From an uncultured Bacteroidota bacterium (GTDB lineage Bacteria > Bacteroidota > Bacteroidia > Bacteroidales > P3): a stretch of 64,000 nucleotides of DNA. The number at the start of each line of letters is the position of its first letter. The stretch's first letter is position 1. Location of the stretch: the NCBI GenBank assembly GCA_902800395.1, contig CADCEC010000003.1:62001-126000 (forward strand). Direction: 5' to 3'. The notes under the pieces were generated by a model. It was not told the origin of the DNA, searched no databases, and worked only from the letters and a program-made list of their open reading frames with translations. A program made the position numbers and the translations under genes. Of the stretch, positions 52-64,000 are shown piece by piece.

Positions 52-657
52 ATGAGACGACTGATTTTCGCGACGAACAACAAGCATAAAGTCGAGGAGG
101 TTCGTGCCGCCCTGGGCGGTATGGTGGAGGTGATTACGCTGGCGGAAGCCGGACTCCACGGCGAGATTCCCGAGACTGCCGACACCCTCCAGGGCAACGC
201 CCTGCAAAAGGCTGAGTGGGTGATTGAACAGTTAAAAGTGAAAAGTGAAAAGTTAAGAGTGGATGGGGTGTTTGCAGACGATACGGGACTGGAGGTGGAG
301 GCTTTGGATGGCGCTCCGGGCGTCTATTCTGCGAGATATGCCGGTGAACATTGCTCTTTTGACGACAATATCGACAAATTGCTCGCCGCACTCGATGGCA
401 AGGAGAACCGCAAAGCCGACTTCCGCACGGTCATCTGCTTGATAGAGAACGGCGAAGTGAGGTATTTCGAGGGGCGTGTAGATGGGCAGATTCTGACGGA
501 GAGGCATACCAATGGCGAGGGTTTTGGTTACGACCCCGTCTTTATGCCGGACCGCTTTGCGGTGAGCTTTGCCGAGATGCCGCTGGAGGTCAAGAACTCC
601 ATCAGCCACCGCGGCCTCGCCGTAAAAAAACTCAAGGAGTACCTCTTCAACTATTAA
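52..657 (+). CDS. rdgB: RdgB/HAM1 non-canonical purine NTP pyrophosphatase
   Basis: House-cleaning enzyme that hydrolyses dITP, XTP and related non-canonical purine triphosphates to monophosphates in the cytoplasm. The protein (201 aa) begins with the family signature TNNKHK (residues 8-13), has FADDTGLEV and APGVYSARYAG in the middle, GFGYDPVF near residue 158 and the terminal SHRG motif near 183, so all family blocks are present. Between residues about 59 and 71 it carries EQLKVKSEKLRV, encoded by a low-complexity heptamer run (about 226-266) that also occurs between genes in this window; this looks like an in-frame insertion before the FADDTG block. The DUF151 gene follows after 26 bp and may be co-transcribed. 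Confidence 0.96.
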   Translation: MRRLIFATNNKHKVEEVRAALGGMVEVITLAEAGLHGEIPETADTLQGNALQKAEWVIEQLKVKSEKLRVDGVFADDTGLEVEALDGAPGVYSARYAGEHCSFDDNIDKLLAALDGKENRKADFRTVICLIENGEVRYFEGRVDGQILTERHTNGEGFGYDPVFMPDRFAVSFAEMPLEVKNSISHRGLAVKKLKEYLFNY

Positions 658-683
658 CTATTATCTATTAACTTTTAACTACC

Positions 684-1232
684 ATGAAGCGGGTTTTTCC
701 ATTGACAATACAGAGCGGCATGTCGCAGAGCGGCAGCTATATTCTGATGCTTTGCGAACCTGAGAGCGGCGTGCAGGTACCCATCTTCATCGGTGCCCAT
801 GAGGCCCAGGGCATCCTGCTGGCCAAAGAGGAGGTGAAGACGCGCCGTCCCATGACCCACGAGCTAATGATGAAGGTGATGGAGGAATACGGGCTGACGC
901 TGAAAGAGGTGAGCATCGACCGCGTCAGCGAGGGCATCTTTTATGCCACACTCCACATGACTGACGGCTTCAACAGCCGGACCTTCGACAGCCGTTCCTC
1001 CGACGCCATCACACTGGCGCTGCTCTCCGACTGTCCCATCATGATGGCAGAGAGCGTGATTGAGGAGACAGGAGTGCAATTGGAGGGAGTGGAAAGTGAA
1101 AAATTAAAAGTGAAAAGTGAAAACTCCATCGAGGAGTTGGAGGAGGAACTGAAGCGCTGCGAGGAGAGCGAGGAGTACGAGCGAGCAGCAGAGATACAGA
1201 AGAGAATAGAGCAGATAAAGGTTTTTCGCTAG
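684..1232 (+). CDS. DUF151/bifunctional nuclease-family protein with C-terminal UVR motif
   Basis: The N-terminal ~130 residues match the DUF151 (BFN) family: LPIFIG-like VPIFIGAHEAQ, ILLAKEEVKTRRPMTHEL, and SSDAITLAL. The C-terminal ~35 residues (IEELEEELKRCEESEEYERA, then AEIQKRIEQIK) form a UvrB/UvrC-type UVR helical hairpin, a pairing common in Bacteroidetes. DUF151 proteins have been described as nucleases in plants; the bacterial role is not firmly established. The linker between the two domains (about residues 135-149, nt 1088-1128) is VESEKLKVKSENS, encoded by the same heptamer repeats as the insertion in the upstream rdgB, suggesting that the linker was created or lengthened by the repeat. 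Confidence 0.9.
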   Translation: MKRVFPLTIQSGMSQSGSYILMLCEPESGVQVPIFIGAHEAQGILLAKEEVKTRRPMTHELMMKVMEEYGLTLKEVSIDRVSEGIFYATLHMTDGFNSRTFDSRSSDAITLALLSDCPIMMAESVIEETGVQLEGVESEKLKVKSENSIEELEEELKRCEESEEYERAAEIQKRIEQIKVFR

Positions 1233-1259: not shown

Positions 1260-1327
1260 GCCTGCAAAGCAGGCAGAAAGGTTAACGTTTAACGGTTAAA
1301 GTTTAAAGTTTAAAGTTTAAAGTTTAG
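1260..1327. repeat. Hairpin plus GTTTAAA heptamer array
   Basis: A short inverted repeat (GCCTGC, AAA, GCAGGC at 1260-1274) is followed by about six imperfect copies of GTTTAAA (1281-1327) that end a few bases before the purine phosphorylase start. The array belongs to the dispersed oligomer family of this window. The hairpin has no U-tract, so termination is uncertain. Confidence 0.7.
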
Positions 1328-2150: not shown

Positions 2151-2236
2151 CTATTATCTATTATCTATTAACTATTATCTATTATCTGTTATCTATTATC
2201 TATTATCTATTATCTATTAACTATTATCTATCTATT
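2148..2236. repeat. CTATTATCTATTA decamer array
   Basis: About nine imperfect copies of TATTATCTAT-type units fill the whole interval between the purine phosphorylase and the transporter gene. Same general class as the other low-complexity arrays here, but with a different unit sequence. Confidence 0.85.
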
Positions 2237-2243: not shown

Positions 2244-3128
2244 ATGCAACGCATCCGACCATACGTACTACCTATCGCCATTGTGCTGGGGTTATTACTA
2301 CACAAGTGGTGCGCGATGTTCTCGTTCCTCGTGCCGTTCATCATCTTCGCCATCCTGTTGTTGACCTTCACAGCAGTGGACCTGCGGAAACTGCGGCTGA
2401 CGATGCTGGACTTCTGGCTGATGCTATTCCAGGTGGTGGTGAGCACGGGGTGCTACGGACTGATTACACTCTTCGGTGGTAGTCATATCGTGGCCGAAGG
2501 AGTGCTGATAGGAGTGCTCTGTCCCGTAGCCTCATCGGTGGCGGTGGTGGCCTGCCTACTGGGTGCCAACCGCGAGACGGTGACGACCTACACCATTGTG
2601 GGCAATCTGATGGTGGCGGTGGTGGCACCGGTGGTTTTCAGTCTCATCGGCGACCACCCGGAACTAGACATTACCGACAGCATGATGCTGATGTTCACCA
2701 AGATTGGCTCCACGCTAGCGCTCCCCTTCTTCTTGGCGGCACTGATGCAGTTCATGCTGCCGAAAGCCAACGCCTTCCTGGCTCGCTACAATGGCTGGGG
2801 CTTCTACCTCTGGGCGCTGGCACTGCTGTTCACCCTCGGACAGACGATAGATTACATCTTCCTCAACGGCGAGGGTAACTGGGGCAGCATCGCCTGGCTG
2901 GGCGGCCTCTCGCTGCTGTTCTGCGTGGTGCAGTTCAGCACAGGCCGATGGTTGGGGAAACGCTATGGAGACATCATCGGGGGCGGACAGCTGCTGGGAC
3001 AGAAAAACTCCGCCATGGGCATCTGGATGGCCAACACCTTCCTCTCGCCCCTCTCCTCTGTCTTCCTGGCCTTCTACAGCATCTACCAGAACGTCTGGAA
3101 CGCATACCAGTTAAGAGTTAAAAGTTAA
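2244..3128 (+). CDS. Bile acid:sodium symporter (BASS/SBF) family transporter
   Basis: An integral inner-membrane protein of 294 aa with about nine hydrophobic segments. The C-terminal block GGGQLLGQKNSAMGIWMANT and FLSPLSSV, and the central CPVASSVAVVACLLGANRE, match the SBF/BASS fold, in which these discontinuous helices form the sodium and substrate sites. The substrate (organic anion, for example a bile acid or keto acid) cannot be read from sequence. The last six residues (QLRVKS) are encoded by the start of the AGTTAAGAGTTAAA repeat at 3111-3148, so the repeat supplies the stop codon and the C-terminus. Confidence 0.85.
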   Translation: MQRIRPYVLPIAIVLGLLLHKWCAMFSFLVPFIIFAILLLTFTAVDLRKLRLTMLDFWLMLFQVVVSTGCYGLITLFGGSHIVAEGVLIGVLCPVASSVAVVACLLGANRETVTTYTIVGNLMVAVVAPVVFSLIGDHPELDITDSMMLMFTKIGSTLALPFFLAALMQFMLPKANAFLARYNGWGFYLWALALLFTLGQTIDYIFLNGEGNWGSIAWLGGLSLLFCVVQFSTGRWLGKRYGDIIGGGQLLGQKNSAMGIWMANTFLSPLSSVFLAFYSIYQNVWNAYQLRVKS

Positions 3129-3148
3129 GAGTTAAAAGTTAAGAGTTA
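3111..3148. repeat. AGTTAAA/AGTTAAG heptamer array
   Basis: Five copies of AGTTAAR separate the BASS transporter from the HAD phosphatase. The array overlaps the 3' end of the transporter gene and ends at the ATG of the next gene. Confidence 0.85.
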
Positions 3149-3913
3149 ATGATTAAGGCTGCTTTTTTTGATATTGACGGGACCTTGTTGAGCTTCACCA
3201 CCCATCGCGTGTCGAAAGGCACGGTGCGGGCGTTCGAAAAACTGCATCAGGCAGGCGTACGGACCTTCCTCTCCACCGGTCGGCCCGAGGTACTCATCCC
3301 CCAGATGCCAGTGAGTTTCGAGGGTATGATTACTATGAATGGAGGTCTCGTTTTTACGTCCGATAAAGTATTGCTGAGCAATCCCGTCCCCGACGCTGAG
3401 CTGCAGCGGTGGCTCGACCTCGCCAAGGAGCGTCACCTCTGCACGATGATATTCACCCGCGACAATATGTTCCTCACCCAGCCCAACGAGATAGGCCTTA
3501 AGCTGCGCAACCAGCTGGAGTTCGAGATGCCGCCGGTGGTGGATATCGACCGCATGCGCACAGAGACTGCCTATCAGATTATCGCCATCATGCCCGGCGA
3601 GATGGACGCCGAGGTCGCCACCCTCCTGCCCCACTGCCGTCTGCCGCGCTGGCATCCTTACTTCACCGATATCGTGGCCCGCGACAACAGCAAGGCCCTC
3701 GGCATGGAGGCCATCTGCCACCATTTCGGCATCCGTCAGGAGGAGACCCTCGCTTTCGGCGACGGTGCCAACGATATCGAGATGCTCGAGTGGGCCGGTA
3801 TCGGCATCGCTATGGGAAATGCCGACGACAAGGTGAAAGCCCACGCCGACCGCGTGACGACGGATGTCGACGATGAAGGCATCGAAAACGCCATAAACCA
3901 ACTATTACAATGA
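3149..3913 (+). CDS. HAD-superfamily Cof-type phosphatase
   Basis: Cytoplasmic haloacid-dehalogenase-like hydrolase, subfamily IIB (Cof-type). Motif I is FFDIDGTLL with nucleophile and acid D8/D10, motif II is FLSTGRP near residue 41, and motif III/IV is FGDGANDIEMLEWAGIGIAM near residues 209-228, with a C2 cap domain between. 254 aa is normal length. Members dephosphorylate sugar phosphates, flavin or PLP precursors; substrate is not predictable. The last codons overlap the next gene (ATGA at 3910), so the two are translationally coupled. Confidence 0.92.
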   Translation: MIKAAFFDIDGTLLSFTTHRVSKGTVRAFEKLHQAGVRTFLSTGRPEVLIPQMPVSFEGMITMNGGLVFTSDKVLLSNPVPDAELQRWLDLAKERHLCTMIFTRDNMFLTQPNEIGLKLRNQLEFEMPPVVDIDRMRTETAYQIIAIMPGEMDAEVATLLPHCRLPRWHPYFTDIVARDNSKALGMEAICHHFGIRQEETLAFGDGANDIEMLEWAGIGIAMGNADDKVKAHADRVTTDVDDEGIENAINQLLQ

Positions 3914-4140
3914 CAAAGTCAATAATGTCCCAAAACCTCGAAGCGGAACTCGCAGAAACCCTCCGCCTGCTGGACAGCTATCAGGACCTCTCCGTCGACC
4001 AGGAGGACGACGACGCTTTCGTGGCCCGCGGAAACGGCTTCTGCGACCGCAAATACAGCGACGACTTCCTCCAGATGCGCATAGCACAACTCACCGCCCG
4101 CGCCGCAGAAATCAAGAAGAATTTGAAAATTGAAAATTAA
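3910..4140 (+). CDS. Small hypothetical acidic protein (76 aa)
   Basis: Overlaps the HAD gene by 4 bp (ATGA), which supports translation. An alternative ATG lies six codons in (MSQNLEAEL). The sequence is acidic and predicted helical at both ends (LEAELAETLRLLDSYQDL; LQMRIAQLTARAAEIKKN), with DQEDDDAFVARGNGFCDRKY between. I do not recognise a family. The C-terminus NLKIEN comes from a AATTGAAAATTG repeat at 4122-4140, so the stop codon is again repeat-derived. Confidence 0.7.
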   Translation: MTKSIMSQNLEAELAETLRLLDSYQDLSVDQEDDDAFVARGNGFCDRKYSDDFLQMRIAQLTARAAEIKKNLKIEN

Positions 4141-4158
4141 TAACGCGCCAGCTTATCT

Positions 4159-4212
4159 TTAAACGTTAAACTTTAAACGTTAAACTTTAAACTTTAAACT
4201 TTAAACGTTATA
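4159..4212. repeat. TTTAAACGTTAAAC array
   Basis: Seven imperfect TAAACTT/TAAACGT heptamers occupy the gap before cls. Same family as the 1281-1327 array but in opposite orientation. Confidence 0.8.
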
Positions 4213-4214
4213 AA

Positions 4215-5630
4215 ATGCTATATCGGCTTGTAGTTTTATTGCTCGTCATTGTCTCGGTCATCATCGTCATCTCCGAGAACCGGAAGCCCTACCTCTCCGT
4301 CTTCTGGATCATGTTCATCGTGCTAATTCCGGGTCTCGGCATCGCCTTCTATTACCTGCTGGGCAAGGACTACCGCGGTCGCCGCACCATCAAGACCGAC
4401 GAGCGTATGCACCTCGACATGCTGCGCAACCAGGCCGTCGGAGACGCCGTCCTCACCCGCCCCCACTCCGACAAATACCAGAAGCTGGCCGACATGATGC
4501 ACAAGGCCAACGACACCCCCCTCCTCGACGGCAACGAAGTGCGCATCTTCACCGATTTCACCCCCATGTTCGAGGCCATGCTCGACGATATCGCCTCCGC
4601 CAAGAGTTTCATCCACATTCAGTTCTATATCGTCGAGAACGACGAGGTGGGACAGCAGCTCAGCGACCTACTCATCCGCAAGGCCGCCGAGGGCGTCGAC
4701 GTACGCCTGATATACGACAGCTGCGCCAACCTCTTCGTCCACAGCGGCTACTACGACCGCATGCGAAAGAACGGCGTCAAGGTGAAGTCGTTCCAGAAAT
4801 TCCTTCCCGCCCTCTTCAACCGCGAGGTGAACTGCCGCACCCACCGCAAAATCGTCGTCATCGACGGCCAGACAGGCTACACCGGCGGCATGAATATCGC
4901 CCGCCGCTACCGCGACGGAATCAACCACGGCGCCTGGCGCGACACACAACTGCGCATCATCGGCCCCGCCGTCAGCCAGCTCGAGGTCTCCTTCCTCTCC
5001 GATTGGCGTTTCTGCACCAAAGAGCTCCTCGATGACCCCCGCTTCTTCCCCACTCAAACAATCACGCAATCAGGAAATAACGCAATCGTACAGATAGTCA
5101 CCTCCGGTCCCATGGACGAGTGGAACACCGTGATGCAAGGCATGGTTCAGGCGATGGCGCAAAGCCGCCACTACCTCTACCTCCAGACCCCCTACTTCAC
5201 GCCGCCGCATCCCGTGCTGCTAGCCATCCGCAACGCCGCCCTCGCCGGTGTCGACGTGAGGCTGATGGTTCCCGCCGCCTCTGACCGTGGCGCCATCACA
5301 CGCCTCGCCTCGCAGTCCTACTTCCGCGACCTGCTGCCCGCCGGCGTGAAGATATACCTCTACACCAACGGCTTCCTGCATGCTAAAACCATCGTCTGCG
5401 ACGACGACTTCACCACCATAGGCTCCACCAACCTTGACCCCCGCAGCCTGGAGCAGAACTTCGAGGTCAACGCCTTCATCTACGACAACGACACCGCCAT
5501 GCGTCAGCGCGACATCTTCATCGACGACCAGCAGCACTGCACGCTCGTCGACCCCGACCTCTGGCAGCAACGCCCCCGCCTGCAGAAGTTCCTCGAATCC
5601 TCCGCCCGCATCCTCACCCCGATATTATAA
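4215..5630 (+). CDS. cls: Cardiolipin synthase (PLD superfamily)
   Basis: Membrane phospholipase-D-type transferase that condenses phosphatidylglycerol into cardiolipin. The N-terminus has two membrane segments (MLYRLVVLLLVIVSVIIVIS and FWIMFIVLIPGLGIAFYYLL). Two HKD motifs are intact: HRKIVVIDGQTGYTGG near residue 210 and HAKTIVCDDDFTTIGSTN near 390. The length, 471 aa, is typical. Between the two catalytic halves, TQTITQSGNNAIVQ (nt about 5055-5095) is encoded by ACTCAAACAATCACGCAATC, one copy of the dispersed octamer element also found in the AlkD-like and NRPS genes. Confidence 0.94.
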   Translation: MLYRLVVLLLVIVSVIIVISENRKPYLSVFWIMFIVLIPGLGIAFYYLLGKDYRGRRTIKTDERMHLDMLRNQAVGDAVLTRPHSDKYQKLADMMHKANDTPLLDGNEVRIFTDFTPMFEAMLDDIASAKSFIHIQFYIVENDEVGQQLSDLLIRKAAEGVDVRLIYDSCANLFVHSGYYDRMRKNGVKVKSFQKFLPALFNREVNCRTHRKIVVIDGQTGYTGGMNIARRYRDGINHGAWRDTQLRIIGPAVSQLEVSFLSDWRFCTKELLDDPRFFPTQTITQSGNNAIVQIVTSGPMDEWNTVMQGMVQAMAQSRHYLYLQTPYFTPPHPVLLAIRNAALAGVDVRLMVPAASDRGAITRLASQSYFRDLLPAGVKIYLYTNGFLHAKTIVCDDDFTTIGSTNLDPRSLEQNFEVNAFIYDNDTAMRQRDIFIDDQQHCTLVDPDLWQQRPRLQKFLESSARILTPIL

Positions 5631-7022: not shown

Positions 7023-7742
7023 TTATCGTGATGCTATCAGAACTGCCTTGCGAGGTGAGATATTGTGGCGGATAAATTTGGCCACAGGGGTGTCTTCGAC
7101 CCACTCGGAGGCAATGTCGCGGAGTCGCGGGCGGGAATCATCGTAGACGATAAGGGTGTTGGTGTAGACGGTGTCGGGAGCAGGAGTGTAGACGATGATG
7201 GAGGTGGAAGGGACAAACGAGGGAGTGGTGTCGACAGCGGGGATTGAATCGATAGCGGGGATAACAGGAATAGAATCGACCGAGGCAATAGAGGGGAGCG
7301 TGTCTTCGAGGAGGGCGGCGGGGCTAGTTGCTCTAGTCTCTCTAGATTCTCTAATTGCTCTAGGGGTTCTAGTTGCTCTAGAGTTTCTAGTTTCTTGAGG
7401 GGGCTGGGCCGCGGCTATCACCAGCGGCTCCTGGGGTTCAAGCTGTCCCATGGTGCCCATGCGGAGGGCGGGCACCATCAGTGCCAGCACCACGGCAGCG
7501 GCGGCGCTCCAGCGGAGGAGGGCCGGCCAGAGGGGCTCTGTGGACTGCTGTGGAACAGCAGCATACCGGACTGTCTCGTCGCGCTCCAGACGCGGGGCCT
7601 CGCTGTAGAGGGCCAGCTCCTCGGCGGCCTCTGGGTGGTCGGCGAGCCAGGCCTCCACGGTCTCGCGCTCGACAGCGGTGAGCTCGTCTTCGGCATAGCG
7701 CAGGAGCCACAGCTCGTAGTTATTGTTATCTATTGTTGTCAT
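7023..7742 (-). CDS. Anti-sigma-factor-like single-pass membrane protein
   Basis: Begins with an acidic helical domain (ELWLLRYAEDELTAVERETV, EAWLADHPEAAEELALY) typical of Bacteroidetes anti-sigma proteins without a zinc finger, followed by one membrane helix (LLRWSAAAAVVLALMVPALR near residue 80) and a periplasmic tail. Its start overlaps the end of the ECF sigma gene by 17 bp, the usual arrangement. The tail residues after the helix (QETRNSRATRTPRAIRESRE) are encoded by an imperfect CTAGTTGCTCTAG-type run (about 7326-7398), an in-frame low-complexity insertion. The barrel gene follows within 23 bp. Confidence 0.8.
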   Translation of the reverse strand: MTTIDNNNYELWLLRYAEDELTAVERETVEAWLADHPEAAEELALYSEAPRLERDETVRYAAVPQQSTEPLWPALLRWSAAAAVVLALMVPALRMGTMGQLEPQEPLVIAAAQPPQETRNSRATRTPRAIRESRETRATSPAALLEDTLPSIASVDSIPVIPAIDSIPAVDTTPSFVPSTSIIVYTPAPDTVYTNTLIVYDDSRPRLRDIASEWVEDTPVAKFIRHNISPRKAVLIASR

Positions 7743-50611: not shown

Positions 50612-51157
50612 CTACTCAGGACGATACTCCGAGAAGGTGTGGTCTTCGTAGAAGAAGAGAATCTTTACTAACCTGCGCTTGTCAGTTGAGATAGGCGCAG
50701 GTTCTTTCTTCTCTTGTTCTTTCTCCTGCTCGCGCTCCGCGCTCACGAAATCTTGTAAATCTTGTAGATTTTCCGCTTTGCGGTTTTCCTCGCGTTCCTC
50801 TTCCATCGGTTCTGGAATGGGATCTGGTTCGGGAATAGAATTAGCGATGGGAGCAGGAGAGGGGGTATCCTCAGGAATGGAAAAGAGCGTAGGCTCGGAC
50901 GAGAATCCCTGATTCCTAATTCCTGATTCCTCATTCCTCATTCCTAATTGCCCATACATCTGACCTTTACCCAAAAGCAACCAGTTGGCATCTATCTCGG
51001 GATAGCGGCGGATGACTTTGTTGACAAACTCCAAACTCGGATTGTTCCGGCCACTCAAAATATGTGACATTCCGGAGGGCTGAATTCCGATTTCCTCTGC
51101 AAACTGTTTTGCAGTGATATTTTTCGCCTGCAAAATGAGATTTATCCTGTTTATCAT
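50612..51157 (-). CDS. XRE-family transcriptional regulator
   Basis: 181 aa. N-terminal helix-turn-helix: INLILQAKNITAKQFAEEIG, IQPSGMSHILSGRNNPSLEF, then FVNKVIRRYPEIDANWLLLG, a phage-repressor-like HTH plus dimer helix. Rest is Pro/Glu-rich and low complexity; MRNEESGIRNQG (50905-50950) is encoded by GATTCCTGATTCCTCATTCC-type repeats. The last 25 residues (DKRRLVKILFFYEDHTFSEY) may be an effector domain. Six TTACA-N2-TGTAA palindromes lie in its upstream gap, so it may bind them. Confidence 0.85.
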   Translation of the reverse strand: MINRINLILQAKNITAKQFAEEIGIQPSGMSHILSGRNNPSLEFVNKVIRRYPEIDANWLLLGKGQMYGQLGMRNEESGIRNQGFSSEPTLFSIPEDTPSPAPIANSIPEPDPIPEPMEEEREENRKAENLQDLQDFVSAEREQEKEQEKKEPAPISTDKRRLVKILFFYEDHTFSEYRPE

Positions 51158-53643: not shown

Positions 53644-53714
53644 GCAAAGATACACTTTTTTTCCTATTCTTTAAACATTAAACTTTAAACATTAAACTTT
53701 ATTTTGTATCTTTG
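53644..53714. promoter_or_regulatory. Divergent -7 elements in a symmetric intergenic region
   Basis: TATCTTTG at 53651-53644 (minus) and at 53707-53714 (plus). Between them are TTAAACATTAAACTT repeats (53672-53700) that provide TTTA at the -33 position for the plus gene. A repeat array thus overlaps a promoter region. Confidence 0.6.
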
Positions 53715-54175: not shown

Positions 54176-54733
54176 TTACTCACCACAGACGGTATAGACA
54201 TAGGAACGGTCGGGGGAGTGGAAAGTGGAAAGCGGGGAGTGGATAGTGGAAAGTTGTGATATGTCGTGCAGGCCTGTGCCGGTGAGTTTCAGGAGGGCTT
54301 CCTTTTGTGTCCAGAGCGCGGTGAAGGCGATGGTGGGGGAGTCGGAGGCAAGGATGGAGGCAACTTCTTCTTCGTTGAAACAGTAGCGGCAGAGCTCCAT
54401 GTCGAGCTCGTCGGGGACGGTCTCAATATCGCAGCCGACGGGATGGTCGGCAACGACACACATCGCCGCACGGGAGCAATGGCTGAGATTGAAATGAATC
54501 TCAGGGTGCTCTTTGAGATAGGGTTTCCCGTTGGGGCCAAAGGCGAATTCGGGGACTTCCTTCAAGCCATATTCTTCGCGGAGCGCCTGCTGGAGCAGGA
54601 GGAAGACCGCGAGGGAGAGGCGCTGGTCGAGCTCGCGCCGGTAACGCAGCGCATAGGCGGCACGCTGGGGGCTCACCTGCCGCAGAGCCTCAGAGATGTC
54701 GAGTTTGTCGATATGGTCGTTGAGGTAAATCAC
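54176..54733 (-). CDS. Sfp-type 4'-phosphopantetheinyl transferase
   Basis: Transfers the phosphopantetheine arm from CoA to carrier-protein serines. 185 aa with FGPNGKPYL and NLSHC near residue 82, GCDIETV near 100 (Mg-binding Asp and Glu) and FTALWTQKEALLKLTG near 138. The last part contains LSTIHSPLSTFHSP (54216-54258), a heptamer-repeat insertion that resembles one in MntP. It is divergent to the SpoIIE-STAS genes and the NRPS, so it is the probable activator of both NRPS carrier domains. Confidence 0.9.
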   Translation of the reverse strand: MIYLNDHIDKLDISEALRQVSPQRAAYALRYRRELDQRLSLAVFLLLQQALREEYGLKEVPEFAFGPNGKPYLKEHPEIHFNLSHCSRAAMCVVADHPVGCDIETVPDELDMELCRYCFNEEEVASILASDSPTIAFTALWTQKEALLKLTGTGLHDISQLSTIHSPLSTFHSPDRSYVYTVCGE

Positions 54734-54837: not shown

Positions 54838-56877
54838 ATGAAAATGAAAAAACTATCAATAGTAAGTGTGGTTTTTCTCGTCGTTGCGTTGGCGATACAG
54901 TTTGCCGTATCATATAACCGTGAGAGGACAAACTTGGAGAATGATATCGAGAGAAGGATGGAACTGGCGGAGAAGGATTTTGTGTTTGAAGTGTATGACA
55001 TGTATGACGCAACAGATGAAATCACCTATTTCTTCCCCGAGTTGTGTGACAACACCGAGGAGTTGTACTCGATGCTGAAGACGGTGTTGGGGCGCTTCCA
55101 GAACCTCTACGGCTGCTATGTGGCTTTCGTGCCCGACTCGTTGCACGGGAGAGAGCGTCGGTTTTCGCCTTTTGCATCCAGAGCTGAGGGGGATTCCATT
55201 TCCGCATTCGATGCCAGTATGGATGTGAATTATCCGGAGCGTGACTGGTACAAGGGTGCGATGCAGAGCGACGAGAAGGGCTATTGGAGCCTGCCGTATC
55301 ATGACGGTATTCATAACGACCTTGTTTTCTCCCACTCGCGGAAGGTGTACGACAAGAAGGGCAGGATGGTGGGTGTGGCGGGAGCCGACTACACGCTCTC
55401 CTGGACGAAGCATAAGTTGGAGGACATCAAGCCTTACGGCGATGCCGTCTGCCAGCTGTACAGCACCAATGGCACGCTTATTGTCGAGAGCGGAGAGGGA
55501 GATATGGACGGCATGATTGTGATGGAGAAGACCCTTTCGCCCCTCAATATGCGACTGGTGATAGGGGTGCCAAACAACCACGTGTGGAAATCGGTACGTG
55601 GCATCTCGCTGCTGACGCTGGCTGTGCTGCTGACGGGAATCATCGCAGCAGGATGGCTGATTAGAAGAATCCAACGCGACCATGAGGCATACGCCCGCAC
55701 GGAAACTGCCAAGAAGCTGATGGAGAAAGAGCTGCAGATTGCCAGCAATATCCAGAGAGGAATACTCCGAGCTCCGGCCCCGGACGGGGCCGGAGCCGGA
55801 GCCGAGGTGCAGGCGACGCTGGTGCCGATGCGCGAAGTGGGTGGCGACCTCTATGACTATTATCGCAAGGGAGACGATTTCTTTTTCATCATTGGCGATG
55901 TGAGCGGCAAAGGCATTCCCGCTGCCCTCTTTATGAGTGCCACTGTCAACCTCTTCCGCTCGGCGGTGAAACGTCTGCAATCGCCCAAAGCCATCATGGA
56001 GGAAATCAACGGAGTGTTGAGCGAACACAATCCAAGCCTGACATTCGTCACCGCCATCATCGGCCGGCTGCATGTGCCCACAGGAGAGCTGACGTATTGC
56101 AACGCGGGACACCTGCCGCCGATAAAGGTTAATGGTGAAAGGTGTGAGGAGGTCGAGTTGATACCGAATATTCCGTTGGGGTATGAAGGAAAGTTCCAGT
56201 TTGTGGAGCAAGGCACCCTGCTCGGGAAAGAGGACACGCTGGTGCTTTATACCGACGGCATCACCGAGGCACGCAACAAGAATCACGAGATGATGGGAAT
56301 GGCGAGGTGGAAAGAGATGGTTATGGAAGGCTCAGGGGTTCAAGAGTTCAAGAGTTCAAGAGTTCAAGGTGAGGAGATGGTGGAGAGGCTGATGGAGGGG
56401 GTGAAGGCCTTCATCGGGAAGGCTGAACAGAGCGACGACATCACGCTGATGACCATCAGCAAGAGAAGCGATATGCAGCCCTATGTCCTGCATGTGGAAA
56501 ACAAGATGAGCCAGTGGCCGGTGCTACGCAAGGCCCTACACGACTATGGCATGTGTGGGGGAATGGAGGACAGGACGCTCAAAAAGATGATCCTCGCCCT
56601 TGAGGAGGCTGTGGTAAACATTGTCAACTACTCGGAAGCAAAATTCATTGGAATGACTATTTCCTGCGGGGACACCCAGCGACTCAGCATCACCCTCCGT
56701 GACGACGGCATTGCCTTTGACCCCACAGCGCAAGCGGAGGTGGATACCGCTGCGGTCATAGACCAAAGGCAGATTGGAGGATTGGGGATCGCCCTGCTAC
56801 GCCAGATAGCCGACGAGGTGCACTACCGCCGCACCGACGACGGACAAAACGAATTATCAATCATAAAAAACATATAA
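54838..56877 (+). CDS. Membrane SpoIIE-type PP2C phosphatase with C-terminal anti-sigma-kinase-like domain
   Basis: 679 aa. N-terminal membrane segment (IVSVVFLVVALAIQFAV), a Cache-like sensor region (~40-255), second membrane segment (LLTLAVLLTGIIAAGWLI), PP2C SpoIIE domain (~295-545: ELQIASNIQRGIL, MREVGGDLYDYYRK, IGDVSGKGIPAALFM, LYTDGITEARN) and a C-terminal HATPase/RsbW-like part (KMILALEEAVVNIVNYSEA, RDDGIAFDPT). SpoIIE usually dephosphorylates a STAS antagonist, and one is encoded next. VQEFKSSRVQGE (56333-56369) is a repeat-encoded insertion. Partner-switch control of an unknown sigma factor or of the NRPS is an inference. Confidence 0.87.
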   Translation: MKMKKLSIVSVVFLVVALAIQFAVSYNRERTNLENDIERRMELAEKDFVFEVYDMYDATDEITYFFPELCDNTEELYSMLKTVLGRFQNLYGCYVAFVPDSLHGRERRFSPFASRAEGDSISAFDASMDVNYPERDWYKGAMQSDEKGYWSLPYHDGIHNDLVFSHSRKVYDKKGRMVGVAGADYTLSWTKHKLEDIKPYGDAVCQLYSTNGTLIVESGEGDMDGMIVMEKTLSPLNMRLVIGVPNNHVWKSVRGISLLTLAVLLTGIIAAGWLIRRIQRDHEAYARTETAKKLMEKELQIASNIQRGILRAPAPDGAGAGAEVQATLVPMREVGGDLYDYYRKGDDFFFIIGDVSGKGIPAALFMSATVNLFRSAVKRLQSPKAIMEEINGVLSEHNPSLTFVTAIIGRLHVPTGELTYCNAGHLPPIKVNGERCEEVELIPNIPLGYEGKFQFVEQGTLLGKEDTLVLYTDGITEARNKNHEMMGMARWKEMVMEGSGVQEFKSSRVQGEEMVERLMEGVKAFIGKAEQSDDITLMTISKRSDMQPYVLHVENKMSQWPVLRKALHDYGMCGGMEDRTLKKMILALEEAVVNIVNYSEAKFIGMTISCGDTQRLSITLRDDGIAFDPTAQAEVDTAAVIDQRQIGGLGIALLRQIADEVHYRRTDDGQNELSIIKNI

Positions 56878-57253: not shown

Positions 57254-60200
57254 ATGAAACAGACAGCGCCCCTTGCAAAATCGCAATTAGGTGTTTATGC
57301 CGAATGCGTGCAACATGAAAACGAGGTTTTCTATAACCTTCCTTTCCTTTATGTCTTTGACGGCAGCATTGATGCCGACCGTTTGTGTCGCGCCATCGAG
57401 GCGACGGTACAGGCCCATCCCACTTTTTTCACTCGCATTGAGCTGAGTGACGAGGGCGAGCCCATCCAGACTATCGACATGGATGAGGTTTCAAGTTTCA
57501 AGCTTCAGGTTTCAAGTTTTACAGACCTTGAGGCTGAGAAGCGAAAGTTCATCGAGCCTTTCAAATTTTATGGCGGCAGGCTGTTTCATACCAAAGTGAT
57601 GCGTGACGCTGAGCATGTCTATTGGCTCTTCGACATGCATCATATCATCAGCGACGGAGGCTCATACCATGTTATCATTTGCGACGTGGAGACGGCCTAC
57701 AACGGTGGCACGCTGGCTCCCGAGGAGATGTCGATGCAGGAATTCGCCCTTGCTGAAGCCGAGATGCGCAAAACGCCCGCTTTCGAGGAAGGCAAACAGT
57801 GGTATGCCCAAAACTTCGACTGCGGCGACACCTTCACCCAGCTCCTCCCCGACCTTGAAATATCCGAGCACTCGGACGCTTATATGTTCCGCACACTCGG
57901 CATCGACATGGCACGGGTGGATGCTTTCTGCAAGACCAACGGCATCAAAAAAAGCACACTCTTCACGTCGGCCTATTCCTTCCTGCTGGCCAAGTACAAC
58001 AACGAGCAGGAATCGCTGTTCACCACGGTGTTCAACGGTCGCACCAATCCGAAGTTCCAACATTCCGTTGGCATGACGGTGCAGACGCTGCCCGTTTACG
58101 CCAAGTTCACCGACGACACTACGGTGCTCGACTTCCTGAAAGCCGATGAGGAACAGATGATCGGCTGCCGCAAGCACGACATCTATGCCTATACAGACAT
58201 CATGAGCGACCTTAACCTGCAAAGCAACTCCATATTTGCATGGCAAGGGCTCTTGTTTGACTATACCGAGCTGATGGGCAAACCCATGAAGGCCATACAG
58301 CTCCGCAAGCATAACGAGGATGTGCCATTCTATCTGATGGCCTACTATATTGGCAAACAATATGAAATCAAGGCCGAATACAGCTCCAACCTCTACTCCG
58401 AGACGCTGATTGCCCAATTCATGGAGAGTTACGAGGCTGTTCTGGAGGGCTTGCTGAGTCAAACCTTGCTGCGCGACATCGACATCTGTACCGAGAGCCA
58501 GCGTGCCTTGTTGGATAGTTTCAACCAGACCGATACAGAGTTGGACGAGAGTGCGACGATCGTCTCCAAATTCCGCGAGCAGGTGGCGAAAACGCCCGAC
58601 AATATCGCGGTGGTATTTAAGGAAAAACGCTTCACCTACAAAGAATTGGACGAGCTTTCCGACCGCATCGCCGCCTATATCCACGGAAAGGGCCTTCACG
58701 AAGAGGATGTGGTCTCCGTGTTGATTCCGCGTAGCGAGTGGATGGCGATTGTCTCCCTGGGCGTGCTGAAGGCCGGTTGCGCCTACCAGCCCCTCGACCC
58801 GAGCTATCCTTCGGAGCGTCTCAACTTCATGATGCAAGATGCCAACGTGAAGTTGCTCATCGCCGATGAATCGCTGCGCGACATCGTGAACGAATACCAA
58901 GGCGACGTACTGTTGACGAGGGAAATTGAAAATTTAAAATTGAAAATTGAGAATTTGCCTGAAGGGCCAAAGTCCGAGTCGCTGTTCATCATGCTCTACA
59001 CCTCCGGTACCACGGGGACGCCCAAAGGCTGCCAGATCGTACATCGTAACCTCGTCTCATTCTGCGAGTGGTACCGGCGCAGGTTCAACCTGACGCCCGA
59101 CTGCAAAGTCTCGGCCTACGCAAGTTACGGATTCGATGCCAGTATGATGGAGACGTATCCATGTCTCACCACTGGTGCCACGCTTTATATTATCCCGGAG
59201 GAGATGCGCCTGGACATGATAGCGCTGAACGAATATTTTGAGCAGGAGCAGATCACTCACGGATTCATGACCACGCAGGTGGCCTATCAGTTCGCCACTT
59301 CCATTGAGAACCATTGCCTGCGCTACCTGATGACCGGTGGCGAGAAGTTGGCTCCGCTGACTCCGCCCACGAACTACACGTTGGTGAACCTCTATGGTCC
59401 GACCGAAAGCACCGTCTGCATCACCTCCTTCGACGTGACAAAGCCCATGAAGGATATCCCAATTGGCGCTGCGTTGGACAACGTGAAACTTTATATCGTC
59501 GACAAGGCGGGTCACCGTCTGCCTGTGGGTGTGGCGGGTGAGTTGTGGGTCGCTGGACCGCAGGTGACCCGCGGCTACCTCAACCGTCCCGAGAAAATGG
59601 CCGAGGTTTATATCGACAATCCCTTCGATTCCAGCGAGAAATACGCCCACATCTACCGCACTGGCGACATCGTGCGCTACCTCCCCGACGGCAACATCCA
59701 GTTTGTGGGACGCAAGGATGGACAGGTGAAGATCCGTGGTTTCCGCATCGAGCTGAAAGAGGTGGAAGGTGTCATCCTTCAGTTCCCTGGCATCAAAGAT
59801 GCAACGGTGCAAGCCTTCGACGAAGAGGGCGGTGGTAAGTTCATCGCAGCCTATATCGTGGCTGATGAGCAAATTGACATCGAAGCTCTGAACAGCTTCA
59901 TCTTGGACGAGAAACCGCCTTACATGGTGCCTGCCGTGACGATGCAAATTGAGCGCATCCCGCTCAACCAGAACCAGAAGGTGAACAAGAAAGCCCTTCC
60001 GAAGCCCGAAAAGAAAGCGGCCGAGGCCGTGGTGGAGAGCAATGTGCCGATGAATGTGCTGGAGCAGGAAATCCACGGCATCATCGCCAAGATCATCAAC
60101 ACCGAAGACTTTGGCGTGACCACCGTGTTGGGTTATGTCGGCCTGACCTCCATCATGGCCATCAAGTTGGCTATCCAGATCAACAAACGTTTCGGTGTTA

Positions 60201-63200
60201 CCCTCGACTCGAAATCCCTCGCCAAGACGGGTACTTTGCAGACCATCGAGAATGAATGCTTGAATGTGTTAATGCGTGATTGCGTGAGTGCTACGCAGGT
60301 AGACCGCGACTCAAACAATCAAACAATCAAACAATCAAGCAATCAAATTCCGCTGTCATACGCGCAGATGGGTGTTTATGTGGAGTGCATGAAGCAGCCC
60401 GAAGCCACCGTGTATAATATTCCGATGAAAGTCCGTTTCCCCAAAGATGTGGATACGACTCTGCTTACCCAGGCATTGGAGACCCTCGTCAAGGCGCATC
60501 CTCAATTGCAGGCGCATTTTGGAAGTTCGGGTTCGGACATTATTCAAATTATTGATTTCGAGCAACCCATCGAAATTCCACATATCCAGCATAGTGAGGC
60601 CGAGATGGACCAATACAAGCGGGAATTCGTCAAGCCGTTCAATCTGAGGCAGGGTCCGCTCTATCGCATGGAGATTGTCACTACCGAGCAATGGGTCTAT
60701 CTGATGATTGACTTCCACCACCTCGTGATGGATGGCGGCTCTCTGGACCTGTTGCTGACACAACTTTTCGAACTGCTCAACGGTCATGAGATTGAACCGG
60801 AATCCTTCACCTACGCCGATTTCGTGGCAGCCGAGAAAGCTGACGAAAACAGCGCAGAACACACTGCCGCCAAGGACTTCTTCCAAGAACGTCTCGGCAA
60901 GGTGGAGGGCGTGACCGAGGTTCCGTCGGATTTGACCAACCCCAAAGAGCAAGGTGTCATCGAGACTTCGACGAGTCCGTTGGATCTCGAAGCCATAAAG
61001 GAGTTCTGTCGTCAGCACAACATCACGCCGGCGCATCTCACCCTCGCGGCCACCTTCTACGCCCTTTCGCGTTTCACCAACAACGAGCAATTGTGCATCA
61101 CCACCATCAGCAACGGTCGTTCCGACCTGCGCATCAGTAATACGACCGGCATGTTCGTCAACACGTTGGCATTGAGTGCCACCATCGGCGAACAGACGGT
61201 GAGGGAGTTCCTTGACGAAACCAGCAAGCAATTCGACGAGACGCTGCGGCACGAGAAATATCCTTTCGCGCAAATCGCTGCTGACTACGACCTTTCCGCT
61301 GAAATCATGTTTGCCTACCAGATGGGCGTTCTCAACGAGCACAAGTTCGGCGGCCAGACGATTGCCATTGAGAATATGGAGTCTGACGTGCCGAAGTTCC
61401 GCATTGCTTTCTATATCCAGGAGGAGAAGGGTGTGCCGAGTGTGTGCATCGAATACGACAATGGCCGTTACAGTCACGACCTGATGCAGACCCTGGCAAA
61501 GTCGATTTGCAACGCTGCGAAGGCATTCATCCGTCAGTCGGAGATGAAGTTGCAGCAAGTGTCGCTCTTGGATGCCGAACAGACCGAAATCCTCGACAGT
61601 TTCAATCAGACCGAGGTGCCCTACGACGACACCCAGACCATCGTTTCGCTGTTCCGTAAGCAAGTGGAACTGACGCCCGACAATATGGCGGCGGTCTATC
61701 ATGACAAGCACTATACGTACAAGGAAGTGGATGCTATTTCGGAGCGTATCGCCAGTTACCTGGTGAAACAGGGTCTCGGCAACGAGGATGTGGTCTCGGT
61801 GCTTATCCCGCGCTGCGAGTGGATGGTCATTGCCTCGTTGGGCGTGCTGAAAGCCGGTTGCGCCTATCAGCCCCTCGACCCGAGTTATCCAGCCGATCGT
61901 CTGAACTTCATGATGCAGGATGCCAATGCCAAACTGCTCATCGCCGATGAAGCCCTGCGTCCCATCGTCGACGAATACCACGGCCCCGTCCTCCTCACCA
62001 AAGACATCCCCCAACTCCCAATTACTAATTCCTCATTCCCAATTCCTAATTCCTCATTCCTAATTCCTAATTCTCCAACTCCTTCATCCCTCTTCATCAT
62101 GCTCTACACCTCCGGTTCGACGGGTACGCCCAAGGGCTGCCAGTTGGAACACGGCAACCTGGTGGCATTCTGCCATTGGTATCAGAGACATTACGGCCTG
62201 ACTTCCAACGACAAGGTGGCCGCCTACGCCAGCTACGGTTTCGATGCCTGCATGATGGACATGTATCCCGCACTCACCTGCGGTGCCTGCGTCCACATCA
62301 TTGGCGAAGATATCCGTTTGAATCTGCCCGACTTGAACGACTACTTCAACCGGGAGGGCATTACCCATTCGTTCATCACCACGCAGGTGGGCTACCAGTT
62401 CGCGACCAACGTCGAGAACCATTCGCTGCGCTGCTTCGCTGTGGGTGGTGAGAAGCTCTCGGCGCTCAACCCGCCGACCAACTATAAGATGTACAACGGT
62501 TACGGTCCGACGGAATGCACCATCTTCACCACCAATTACTGGGTGAAGGATTACGAACTGGACATCCCCATCGGCAAGCCGTTAGACAACTTGAAACTCT
62601 ATATCGTTGACAAGCAATTCAACAGACTTCCTATTGGGGCTATGGGCGAGTTGTGGGTCACCGGACCGCAAGTGAGCCGAGGCTACCTGAACCGCCCCGA
62701 AAAGACCGCCGAGACCTACATCCAAAATCCGTTCAGCGACGACCCGAAGCACTCTCGTGTGTATCGCACCGGCGACATCGTGCGTTATCTGCCCGATGGC
62801 AATTTCCAGTTTGTCGGCCGTAAGGACGGTCAGGTGAAGATTCGTGGCTTCCGCATCGAGTTGAAGGAAGTGGAAGCTGTGATTCGCCAGTTCCCGGGCA
62901 TCAAGGATGCCACCGTGCAAGCCTTTGAGTATGAGAACGGCGGCAAGTACATCGCCGCCTACATCGTCAGCGATGAAAAAGTGGATATCAAGGAACTCAA
63001 CGCCTTCATCGGTCAGCAGAAACCTCCGTACATGATTCCGGCGGCCACGATACAGATTGACGCCATCCCGTTGAACCAGAACCAGAAGGTAAACCGCAAG
63101 GCGCTGCCCGCACCTGTCATCCAGGCCGCCGACCACGAATATGTGGAGCCCGTTACCGAGGTAGAGAAACTCTTCTGCAAGATTTACAGCGACATTCTGT

Positions 63201-64000
63201 CGATGGACAAGATTGGCGCCACCGACAACTTCTTTGAGTTGGGTGGCACATCGCTGATGGTGACGCGTTTCATCATCGAGGCCGACAAGGCTGGTCATCA
63301 TATCGCTTACGGTGATGTATTCGCCAACCCCACGCCGCGCCTGTTGTCCAATTTCATCAGTGGAGGTGACGTCGACGAGGATGTCGAGGCCCGTGATTAC
63401 AACTACGGCGCCATCAACAGTATTCTCGAAGGCAACACGCTCGACGCTTTCCGAAATGGCGACAGACAGCCCATCGGCAACGTGTTGCTGACGGGTGCTA
63501 CCGGTTTCTTGGGTATCCATATCCTGAAGGAGTTGATAGAACGCGACGACGTGCCAGTCATCTACTGTCTGGTCCGTGCCGAAAATCAGGAAAAGGCCGA
63601 ACGACGCCTGAAAGGCATGCTCTTCTATTATTTCAGCAAGAACTACAAGGAGCTGTTCGGTACCCGCCTCTTCGTCATCAACGGCGACGTCACCACCGAC
63701 TTCACTCAAACAATCCTGCAATCAAGCAATCAAGCAATCAACACCCTCTTCAACTGTGCCGCCGTCGTCAAGCACTTCTCCAAAGGCACTGAGATTGAAG
63801 ATGTCAACGTCAAGGGCGCTGCACACTGTGTCCAGTTCTGCCTCCTCACGGGTGCCCGTCTCATCCATGTCTCTACCTACAGCACCGGCGGCCTATCCGT
63901 CAACGGGATGCCACCAGAGGACACGGTCTACACTGAACAGAAACTCTATTTCGGCCAGCACCTCGGCAACCAATATGTCCACTCTAAGTTTATGTCCGAA
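57254..64000 (+). CDS. Nonribosomal peptide synthetase C-A-T-C-A-T-reductase (3' end outside window)
   Basis: Open from ATG 57254 to the window edge: 2249 codons, no stop. Domain order: C1 (~1-430; HHIISDG 129-135), A1 (~450-940; YTSGTTGTPKG near 581), T1 (Ser966 in LGYVGLTSIMAI), C2 (~1010-1430; HHLVMDG 1155-1161), A2 (~1450-1960; YTSGSTGTPKG near 1617), T2 (Ser2000 in LGGTSLMV), then reductase R (GATGFLG near 2081; Y2241-x3-K2245). Releases a dipeptide as aldehyde or alcohol. An initial C domain suggests an acylated start. Five low-complexity in-frame insertions lie between or within domains. PPTase, SpoIIE and STAS genes adjoin. Confidence 0.92.
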   Translation, partial: MKQTAPLAKSQLGVYAECVQHENEVFYNLPFLYVFDGSIDADRLCRAIEATVQAHPTFFTRIELSDEGEPIQTIDMDEVSSFKLQVSSFTDLEAEKRKFIEPFKFYGGRLFHTKVMRDAEHVYWLFDMHHIISDGGSYHVIICDVETAYNGGTLAPEEMSMQEFALAEAEMRKTPAFEEGKQWYAQNFDCGDTFTQLLPDLEISEHSDAYMFRTLGIDMARVDAFCKTNGIKKSTLFTSAYSFLLAKYNNEQESLFTTVFNGRTNPKFQHSVGMTVQTLPVYAKFTDDTTVLDFLKADEEQMIGCRKHDIYAYTDIMSDLNLQSNSIFAWQGLLFDYTELMGKPMKAIQLRKHNEDVPFYLMAYYIGKQYEIKAEYSSNLYSETLIAQFMESYEAVLEGLLSQTLLRDIDICTESQRALLDSFNQTDTELDESATIVSKFREQVAKTPDNIAVVFKEKRFTYKELDELSDRIAAYIHGKGLHEEDVVSVLIPRSEWMAIVSLGVLKAGCAYQPLDPSYPSERLNFMMQDANVKLLIADESLRDIVNEYQGDVLLTREIENLKLKIENLPEGPKSESLFIMLYTSGTTGTPKGCQIVHRNLVSFCEWYRRRFNLTPDCKVSAYASYGFDASMMETYPCLTTGATLYIIPEEMRLDMIALNEYFEQEQITHGFMTTQVAYQFATSIENHCLRYLMTGGEKLAPLTPPTNYTLVNLYGPTESTVCITSFDVTKPMKDIPIGAALDNVKLYIVDKAGHRLPVGVAGELWVAGPQVTRGYLNRPEKMAEVYIDNPFDSSEKYAHIYRTGDIVRYLPDGNIQFVGRKDGQVKIRGFRIELKEVEGVILQFPGIKDATVQAFDEEGGGKFIAAYIVADEQIDIEALNSFILDEKPPYMVPAVTMQIERIPLNQNQKVNKKALPKPEKKAAEAVVESNVPMNVLEQEIHGIIAKIINTEDFGVTTVLGYVGLTSIMAIKLAIQINKRFGVTLDSKSLAKTGTLQTIENECLNVLMRDCVSATQVDRDSNNQTIKQSSNQIPLSYAQMGVYVECMKQPEATVYNIPMKVRFPKDVDTTLLTQALETLVKAHPQLQAHFGSSGSDIIQIIDFEQPIEIPHIQHSEAEMDQYKREFVKPFNLRQGPLYRMEIVTTEQWVYLMIDFHHLVMDGGSLDLLLTQLFELLNGHEIEPESFTYADFVAAEKADENSAEHTAAKDFFQERLGKVEGVTEVPSDLTNPKEQGVIETSTSPLDLEAIKEFCRQHNITPAHLTLAATFYALSRFTNNEQLCITTISNGRSDLRISNTTGMFVNTLALSATIGEQTVREFLDETSKQFDETLRHEKYPFAQIAADYDLSAEIMFAYQMGVLNEHKFGGQTIAIENMESDVPKFRIAFYIQEEKGVPSVCIEYDNGRYSHDLMQTLAKSICNAAKAFIRQSEMKLQQVSLLDAEQTEILDSFNQTEVPYDDTQTIVSLFRKQVELTPDNMAAVYHDKHYTYKEVDAISERIASYLVKQGLGNEDVVSVLIPRCEWMVIASLGVLKAGCAYQPLDPSYPADRLNFMMQDANAKLLIADEALRPIVDEYHGPVLLTKDIPQLPITNSSFPIPNSSFLIPNSPTPSSLFIMLYTSGSTGTPKGCQLEHGNLVAFCHWYQRHYGLTSNDKVAAYASYGFDACMMDMYPALTCGACVHIIGEDIRLNLPDLNDYFNREGITHSFITTQVGYQFATNVENHSLRCFAVGGEKLSALNPPTNYKMYNGYGPTECTIFTTNYWVKDYELDIPIGKPLDNLKLYIVDKQFNRLPIGAMGELWVTGPQVSRGYLNRPEKTAETYIQNPFSDDPKHSRVYRTGDIVRYLPDGNFQFVGRKDGQVKIRGFRIELKEVEAVIRQFPGIKDATVQAFEYENGGKYIAAYIVSDEKVDIKELNAFIGQQKPPYMIPAATIQIDAIPLNQNQKVNRKALPAPVIQAADHEYVEPVTEVEKLFCKIYSDILSMDKIGATDNFFELGGTSLMVTRFIIEADKAGHHIAYGDVFANPTPRLLSNFISGGDVDEDVEARDYNYGAINSILEGNTLDAFRNGDRQPIGNVLLTGATGFLGIHILKELIERDDVPVIYCLVRAENQEKAERRLKGMLFYYFSKNYKELFGTRLFVINGDVTTDFTQTILQSSNQAINTLFNCAAVVKHFSKGTEIEDVNVKGAAHCVQFCLLTGARLIHVSTYSTGGLSVNGMPPEDTVYTEQKLYFGQHLGNQYVHSKFMSE
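60251..60347 (+). repeat. Bipartite octamer repeat inside the NRPS (T1-C2 linker)
   Basis: GAATGCTTGAATGTGTTAAT-type units, core GCGTGAGTGCTACGCA, then ACTCAAACAATCAAACAATC-type units; the same arrangement as 37671-37763 upstream of clpB. In frame it encodes ECLNVLMRDCVSATQ then DSNNQTIKQSSNQ, within the T1-C2 linker. Confidence 0.8.

Follow-up and report, generated by a model that had tools for sequence, protein, structure and literature searches.

The window analysed here, a 64,000-nucleotide stretch of an uncultured Bacteroidota bacterium of the order Bacteroidales (positions 62,001 to 126,000 of contig CADCEC010000003.1), carries many short tandem arrays, mostly of 7- or 8-nucleotide units, which lie between genes and, in frame, inside ordinary proteins. 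Alignments with related genomes show, at the level of sequence, that these arrays are at least in large part insertions, that the repeat family occupying a given tolerant place differs between species, and that relatives differ more often by absence or replacement of a whole array than by a change in unit number. Several tests argue that the arrays have not grown from one local unit. The reading we favor, to which we assign a probability of roughly 40%, is that short mosaic patches are inserted by a lineage-specific process, which may work by switching template among existing arrays, and that selection keeps the harmless ones. The window is part of a 2.4-Mb genome of 21 contigs (G000), whose nearest named relatives are uncultured Bacteroidales metagenome-assembled genomes (MAGs), mostly from rumen or gut, Candidatus Colimorpha among them. 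G036 was the main comparison species; G002, G004, G023, G061 and similar labels denote other relatives' genomes, and L labels denote numbered loci.

Arrays were detected with Tandem Repeats Finder and with our own detector (period 5-40); shuffle controls for array counts and length distributions were first-order Markov samples. An earlier, sequence-only reading of the window had listed short tandem arrays at 21 intervals, and all 21 were overlapped by a Tandem Repeats Finder array. Our own detector found 42 arrays in the window and 0 in each of 5 shuffles, while a further 400 kb of G000 yielded 165 arrays compared to 2 in one shuffle; the dominant periods were 7, 14, 21 and 8. These counts confirm that the dispersed short arrays are real. 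An assembly artefact, for which the sequence-only reading had allowed, is unlikely, because such arrays recur across many separately assembled MAGs of the genus. What that reading made of the arrays is partly supported. Its list of short units needed correction at cls and AlkD, where the arrays are degenerate 8-mers, and two of its protein names, "ATP-grasp-like" (14625-15515) and "anti-sigma" (7023-7742), could not be upheld, as neither protein has a Pfam match.

We examined the vocabulary of the arrays in an 864-kb part of G000 with 741 called genes. Genes were called with a home-made hexamer caller, so in-gene counts are estimates. This sample held 196 heptamer-type arrays, with 88 in called genes, 70 intergenic and 38 across a gene end. 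The probability that two in-gene heptamer arrays have a unit in common was 0.190, against 0.0011 for random heptamers; for other heptamer arrays it was 0.045, against 0.0022. Units are thus shared genome-wide, where slippage-type repeats would have units unrelated between loci. Species differ in dialect: G000 uses mostly AAAGTGG; G036 uses AAAGTTT, AAAGGTT and AAAGGTG; and G061 uses AAAATTG and AAAAACT. Variation between units falls mainly at fixed positions, as in AG[A/T]TAAT, where position 3 is A at 0.56 and T at 0.44 and five of the other six positions reach at least 0.94, although these counts come from arrays preselected by likeness to the consensus, which lessens their weight for the favored reading.

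The arrays also have a preferred length. In each of the five families scored, which include an 8-mer one, the 33-35 bp class held the most segments (23/101, 21/78, 15/51, 10/46 and 9/33), and this was also so for the non-coding segments of three of them (TTAA family, 21/76; AGATAAT, 13/43; AATTGAR, 6/17). Two families had a second peak at 18-20 bp, and heptamer array lengths peaked at 29-34 bp in G036, G002, G061, G110 and 80 loci as well. Slippage would give a smooth fall-off in length and change by whole units; we found instead a peak near 34 bp and turnover of whole arrays. Units within an array were only slightly more alike than units from different arrays, with p between 0.05 and 0.14 at five of the 8 variable positions. 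The order of unit variants in G000 showed no sharing beyond a unit-shuffle null (LCS 21.5 vs 21.2, 204 arrays), and literal array copying in this genome was rejected on that basis.

In-frame 7-/8-mer arrays were present in 81 of the 741 called genes, or about 11 percent. Among 82 in-gene arrays, 62 were of the 7-/8-nucleotide type (48 + 14), 19 had a period divisible by three (21 excluded) and 1 was of another kind. Families differed in where they lie. AGTGGAA-like segments, whose pure unit is stop-free on both strands, were in genes in 77/101 cases, and segments of the 8-mer TCAARCAA, which is stop-free on one strand, in 36/46; the 8 full in-gene arrays of the latter type among those listed were all in the permitted orientation. 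For the TTAA family, which reads TAA on both strands, the figure was 2/78. Since stop absence inside a called gene is partly definitional, the informative part of these numbers is the contrast between families. TTAA and AGATAAT arrays are mainly intergenic, often straight after a stop codon or just ahead of a start. Replication-strand bias was looked for and rejected: heptamer arrays in the 864 kb had neither a GC-skew strand bias (79/150) nor a coding-strand bias (39:41).

The sequence-only reading held that arrays in coding sequence are always in frame. Twenty of the 21 listed arrays do lie within an open frame; the other, an AGTGGAA array said to be inside dnaX (33786..33818, minus strand), lies outside, directly downstream of the dnaX ATPase frame and just past its stop. 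This 367-aa frame (33851-34954, minus strand) contains the clamp-loader domains (Pfam), and the downstream frame at whose start the array stands has no Pfam match. Because stop-containing families sit between genes, "always in frame" is at least partly survivorship.

Comparison with relatives revealed how single places change. In rdgB (Ham1/ITPase), an AGTGAAA-type array (226..266, plus strand) lies in frame in the helix-strand loop before FADDTG. Among 81 RdgB sequences, consisting of the window's own and the best 80 of 480 relatives found, this loop has exactly 7 residues in 63 and at least 4 extra residues, of unrelated sequences, in 15. On a quickly built tree, few of whose branches are well supported, the loop lengths require at least 12 changes. 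An AlphaFold model of the window RdgB (mean pLDDT 83) places the insert between helix 46-63 and strand 72-82. A TTAACTA/TTATCTA array (649..683, plus strand) fills the gap between rdgB and the DUF151 gene as far as the start codon; many relatives have 3-12 bp between the two matches, and others have a longer gap, filled by different repeat families. Between the BFN (DUF151) domain and the UVR motif, an in-frame AGTGAAA array (1082..1128, plus strand) has as its counterparts GGTGAAA units in G036 and AGTGGAG units in G002.

Orthologous places in relatives were often empty or held another repeat family. The in-frame AGTGGAA array of mntP (14221..14264, minus strand) corresponds to AATTGAA units in G004 and to no evident array in G036 or G023. 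A 10/20-mer array in frame in the protein at 14625-15515 (GGAGTGAAAG; 14908..14951, minus strand; net +39 bp vs G036) is missing from G036, G004 and G023, while an in-frame AATTGAA array (15326..15362, minus strand) lies in a loop that holds GTGAAAG units in G036, AGAGTGG units in G004 and non-repeat sequence in G023. In a gap, a 9-mer array (TATAGTGAC; 15519..15550, unstranded; net +35 bp) is missing from G036, with flanks 85 and 99 percent identical. A 10-mer array (TCACTCCATC; 26132..26175, plus strand), missing from G036 and G002, lies in frame in the N-terminal, signal-peptide-like part of a TPR protein whose lipoprotein signal was judged by eye; it is inside the longest frame (26114-26698) and ahead of the start chosen by the caller (26180).

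The earlier view that inserts add or replace loops holds at many sites, such as the RdgB loop, but the inserts are not all private. Of 13 sites aligned, cls, ligA and AlkD carry the same repeat family in G036. At cls, where a degenerate 8-mer array of the TCAARCAA type is in frame (5055..5095, plus strand), G002 also has this family and G004 has non-repeat sequence. The in-frame AGTGGAA array of LigA (30636..30674, minus strand), at the HhH/BRCT domain junction, likewise shares its family with G002 as well as G036, and the 8-mer array in frame in the AlkD-like protein (52975..53013, minus strand) shares its family with G036.

The sample held 319 arrays with periods of 6-24, and a counterpart in G036 was found for 47 of them. 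The net length difference between G000 and G036 was a multiple of three at 22/22 in-gene sites and at 11/25 other sites (p = 1.4e-5), with in-gene site L117:19243 and other site L117:19165 showing an identical difference. When sites of equal length were left out, the figures were 13/13 in genes and 9/23 elsewhere (p = 2.5e-4). Whole-array absence or replacement outnumbered change by a multiple of the unit by 19 to 2 in nine pairs of relatives, both directions counted, and by 54 to 8 between G000 and G036, where each case was scored twice (about 27 to 4). Arrays of G000 and G036 were identical at several near-identical stretches. Where flanks were at least 95 percent identical, length was kept in 10/10 G000/G036 scores (each array scored twice) and in 4/5 cases among other relatives. 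Close pairs of relatives gave few exact empty sites.

In the favored reading, patches of typically about 34 bp, less often about 20 bp, would be inserted as 3-5 units of 7-8 bases, sometimes 9-10, drawn from a small vocabulary that differs by species. Insertion would be blind to coding. As a 7-/8-mer array is read in all three frames, families that hold a stop would survive between genes, and stop-free families would survive in genes at loops, linkers or termini, provided that the net length is divisible by three. The weakest step is the synthesis: patches may be made during repair or replication restart by a polymerase that changes template between units and draws on the arrays already dispersed in the genome. 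The shared dialect, mixed unit order and limited length suggest synthesis that switches among existing arrays, since template switching would give all three, with no fixed target. If patch insertion is a standing mutational process, about 1 in 9 called genes of the sample (81/741) bears its trace. Loop length in housekeeping enzymes would then jump by about 8-14 residues, with natural replicates across many species, and how proteins gain loops and which sites tolerate them would be directly measurable.

Several observations weigh against this reading. We saw no donor, intermediate or enzyme. Most G000/G036 cases scored as absent have flanks below 80 percent identity, where alignment is unsure, and at missing inserts the nearest-relative flanks are usually 10-20 percent diverged, too far for junction microhomology to be read. 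The length preference has exceptions: there was no 34-bp peak among 24 non-coding AGTGGAA-like segments, 21/101 AGTGGAA-like segments were just 12-14 bp, close to the 12 of the shuffle, heptamer arrays in G061 peak a second time at 23-24 bp, and 19/186 arrays in 80 loci form a tail of 60 bp or more. All 8 variable positions lean to within-array similarity, as local expansion would give, significantly so at TTAA position 7, AGTGGAA position 5 and 8-mer position 5. The starts and ends of TTAA arrays favor certain phases (p = 9e-9 and 1e-12), a preference that would not be expected from random switching and that is weaker or absent in other families. G061 has literal copies (0.40 vs 0.14 share at least 28 bp), and some arrays in G000 and G036 adjoin shared cores. 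Part of the dispersal is therefore element copying.

We looked for enzymes whose presence follows array abundance in 14 array-rich and 14 array-poor genomes, chosen from counts of a degenerate AT-rich heptamer pattern in 99 genus genomes (rich, at least 30 matches; poor, 0; only genomes at least 90 percent complete). The pattern captures one vocabulary only, and the "poor" genome G028 has 14 matches to the backward pattern; as a control the backward pattern is useless, because the vocabulary reads nearly the same in reverse. A reverse transcriptase (RT) was rejected as the cause, since RVT_1 was found in 5/14 rich and 7/14 poor genomes (p = 0.70) and not in array-rich G061, G103, G117 or G002. 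The sole RVT_1 protein found in G000 scores best as a retron-type RT. Ku, found in 0/28 genomes, was also rejected, as were Y1 transposase (12/14 rich and 10/14 poor; not found in array-rich G117) and Y-family polymerase, present in all 28 genomes, rich and poor alike. The DinB-like subtype, sorted by eye from E-values, was commoner in array-poor genomes (9/14 vs 4/14 rich, p = 0.13), possibly just a clade effect. A hidden long donor array was not found at 20 ends of 10 of the 21 contigs: none enters an array at its last base, although at 4 of the 20 an array lies within 150 bp, in one case 22 bp away.

Ordinary slippage is the foremost alternative, though we consider it improbable. Heptamer-rich long simple sequence repeats (SSRs) would arise from local seeds, expand, decay by point mutation and be sorted by selection between compartments. 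The heptamer bias of slippage-type repeats (periods 5-11, heptamers commonest) is present here, and excerpts of one report describe heptanucleotides as the commonest 5-11 nt repeats in most genomes that abound in such repeats (PMC4679880, citing Mrazek 2007). Of 295 other genomes in the phylum, 12 have the TTAA pattern, with at most 23 matches compared to 137 in G000; there, among the places listed, it forms mostly pure arrays such as (TTAATGG)n. A few unit-multiple length changes do occur, and the lean to within-array similarity (8/8 positions, 3 significant) fits local expansion. Against slippage, units are shared genome-wide, 7- and 8-mer families alike have a preferred length, unit variation is limited to fixed positions, within-array similarity is weak and whole arrays turn over. 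As slippage does not readily yield a preferred length or mosaic units, its standing as the default for bacterial heptamer repeats is open to question.

Mobile elements of a very short REP- or MITE-like kind, non-autonomous, about 20-50 bp long, repetitive inside and moved by a trans-acting enzyme, are likewise doubtful as a general explanation and rank next. They would account for the defined ends of TTAA elements, TAACGK(TTAAHGK)nTTAAAGA, for the literal copies in G061 and for the shared cores beside arrays in G000 and G036. However, inspection by eye gave no consistent target-site duplication or terminal inverted repeat, although the flanks have diverged too far to place junctions exactly and site 15519 may have a 6-bp direct repeat. 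Unit order is not shared in G000, and Y1 transposase, the sole transposase family surveyed, shows no link to array abundance.

A stronger form of patch insertion seems unlikely to us: a dedicated patch-writing polymerase, RNA-templated or array-switching, with a set length (about 20 or 34 nt) and a species-specific wobble alphabet, would write at breaks and continually add loops and linkers to proteins. We give little credence to the proposal that arrays are kept for a function, as three-frame stops, unstructured leaders or protein-binding sites between genes, with the in-gene arrays as by-catch. The position of TTAA and AGATAAT arrays, mainly between genes and often after a stop or before a start, fits it, as does the translational role that MacGregor proposed, in the excerpted text, for TAACTGA arrays upstream of start codons (PMC4679880), but the same gap is empty or holds unrelated families in relatives, most AGTGGAA-type and 8-mer segments are inside genes, and matches to one heptamer pattern vary from 0 to 341 within one genus. 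Least probable is RNA-templated repeat addition, in which a telomerase-like polymerase would copy a short wobble RNA template repeatedly and the product would be joined into breaks: units of 7-10, 3-5 repeats, fixed variable positions, end phases and dialects fit limited repeat addition, and bacterial DRT10 makes tandem-repeat DNA on RNA, with a 9-nt period in one system (PMC12632851, in part), but the RVT_1 survey (5/14 rich, 7/14 poor; DRT10 not searched with its own model), the retron-type identity of the RVT_1 protein found in G000, the many templates that many families would require and the lack of Ku in all 28 genomes oppose it.

Cyanobacterial short tandemly repeated repetitive sequences have a heptamer bias, occur in intergenic and coding sequence and are attributed to slippage. 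The arrays described here resemble 5-11 nt long SSRs in their heptamer bias and their occurrence in both compartments, but unlike long SSRs, which are attributed to slippage, they favor a particular length and do not appear to stem from amplification of a single local unit. The closest precedents are TAACTGA heptamers and Rickettsia palindromic elements (PMC4679880, PMC10969869); the sequence-only reading knew of no standard name for the system, but a lack of precedent for the kind is not supported. TAACTGA 7-mer direct repeats are described from Beggiatoaceae, Cyanobacteria and five Bacteroidetes, some within open reading frames (ORFs), in sets of 2-6 copies in the main genome, mostly upstream of start or across stop codons; in-ORF repeats lie at protein ends, and in one orientation the repeat has stops in all frames (PMC4679880, excerpts). 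The TTAA and AGATAAT arrays are similar 7-mer direct repeats near start and stop codons. Unlike TAACTGA, a single unit whose related heptamers are described in those excerpts as rare, the window's genome has many degenerate families, with TAACTGA not among the leading units, a preferred array length and arrays in about 11 percent of called genes, housekeeping enzymes included. Rickettsia palindromic elements are reported, in the passages covered, as selfish in-frame insertions of about 150 bp whose ORFs each encode a conserved peptide (PMC10969869). They share with the arrays in-frame insertion into unrelated ordinary proteins at tolerated sites, but they are about 150 bp and palindromic by name, whereas the arrays are tandem and mostly 20-45 bp.

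Two further systems are more distant. In-gene repeats of Borgs have unit lengths all divisible by three, are near-perfect and virtually all unique in sequence, and vary in unit number within populations, according to the excerpted account (PMC9879509). Like them, the arrays are genome-specific, occur in genes and between, keep the frame and give proteins repeat stretches; unlike them, their units are mostly 7 or 8 nt, degenerate and common across the genome. DRT10 produces free tandem-repeat cDNA in phage defence and depends on its RT, as partial text of the source describes (PMC12632851). Its product resembles the arrays as bacterial DNA of short tandem units, but DRT10 is RT-dependent, and the RVT_1 protein found in G000 is retron-type. 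Among the literature matches listed, rumen heptamers included and with incomplete coverage of subscription journals, there was no account of such a pattern in Bacteroidales.

The degenerate AT-rich heptamer pattern was present in 75/99 genus genomes, G000 included, with 0 to 341 matches each. The 8-mer pattern was found in 0/294 other genomes of the order (3 of the same family, none of the genus), and related 8-mers are present within the genus.

The window contains further arrays. A TTAACGK/TTAAAGT array between genes (1277..1326, plus strand) follows a GC-rich hairpin-like core that also occurs near L123:16532. AGATAAT/AGTTAAT arrays are intergenic (2151..2231, minus strand), and an AGTTAAG/AGTTAAA array (3109..3149, plus strand) makes the C-terminal codons and stop of the upstream gene. 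A compound element (4120..4210, minus strand) consists of an AATTGAA-like array, the core AACGCGCCAGCTTATC and a TTAAMGK array; the closest relative carries this compound inverted at another locus (L015/L085). In-frame arrays also occur in a protein without a Pfam match (9/18-mer; 7324..7402, minus strand), an HTH protein (AGGAATT/AGGAATG; 50904..50950, minus strand), a phosphopantetheinyl transferase near its C terminus (AGTGGAA-type; 54213..54258, minus strand) and a SpoIIE domain (8-mer TTCAAGAG; 56333..56369, plus strand). The N-terminal part of a beta-flower protein has 7-mer and 9-mer arrays (46496..46640, minus strand), identical in G036. Intergenic 8-mer arrays lie at 37671..37763 (unstranded), the first of them (37678-37706) identical in G036, and a 34-bp TTAA-family element lies between divergent genes (53669..53701, minus strand). 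A nonribosomal peptide synthetase frame extends past the window edge with a stop-free translation and has five in-frame entries on the plus strand: GTTTCAA (57487..57519), AATTGAA (58920..58956), 8-mer arrays ahead of a condensation domain (60251..60347), AATTCCT (62013..62076) and an 8-mer array (63705..63742).

GC-rich intergenic cores such as GTTTGCTCC...GCAGGCCGTGACCAGAGGTCAGGCAGAA are dispersed in G000 and G036, embedded between heptamer arrays (window 1216-1281; L123:16488-16553; L117:13565 and 18009; L114:7277; L174 and L205 of G036). A GGCTGACGCA-like motif follows arrays of different families (window 14259-14275, several G000 and G061 flanks), and GCTGACGCA was observed 7 times in G000 array flanks, with 0.6 expected. 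ATTAACGAATTAACACATTAACGAATTAACGAATT is dispersed in near-identical copies in G061 (L158:19084 and 19904, L160:7093, L152:4761).

Arrays of period 11/22 look like a separate phenomenon, perhaps regulator-binding iterons. Only 1 of 105 is in a gene, some form inverted pairs, and their sequences differ by species; examples lie at window 21569-21634, at L001, L012, L022, L037 and L059, and at other rdgB loci. Comparison of window positions 25059, 37678 and 45569-46640 with contig C24 of G036 revealed stretches of 95-100 percent identity beside stretches of about 80-90 percent, which suggests recent recombination between these species. A cobalamin riboswitch (Rfam RF00174; window 47707-47905) contains a 33-bp tandem duplication (47805-47870). 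Elsewhere in G000, a large retron-type RT frame (C1:142710-143267, L191) adjoins a protein that we take to be WYL-like.

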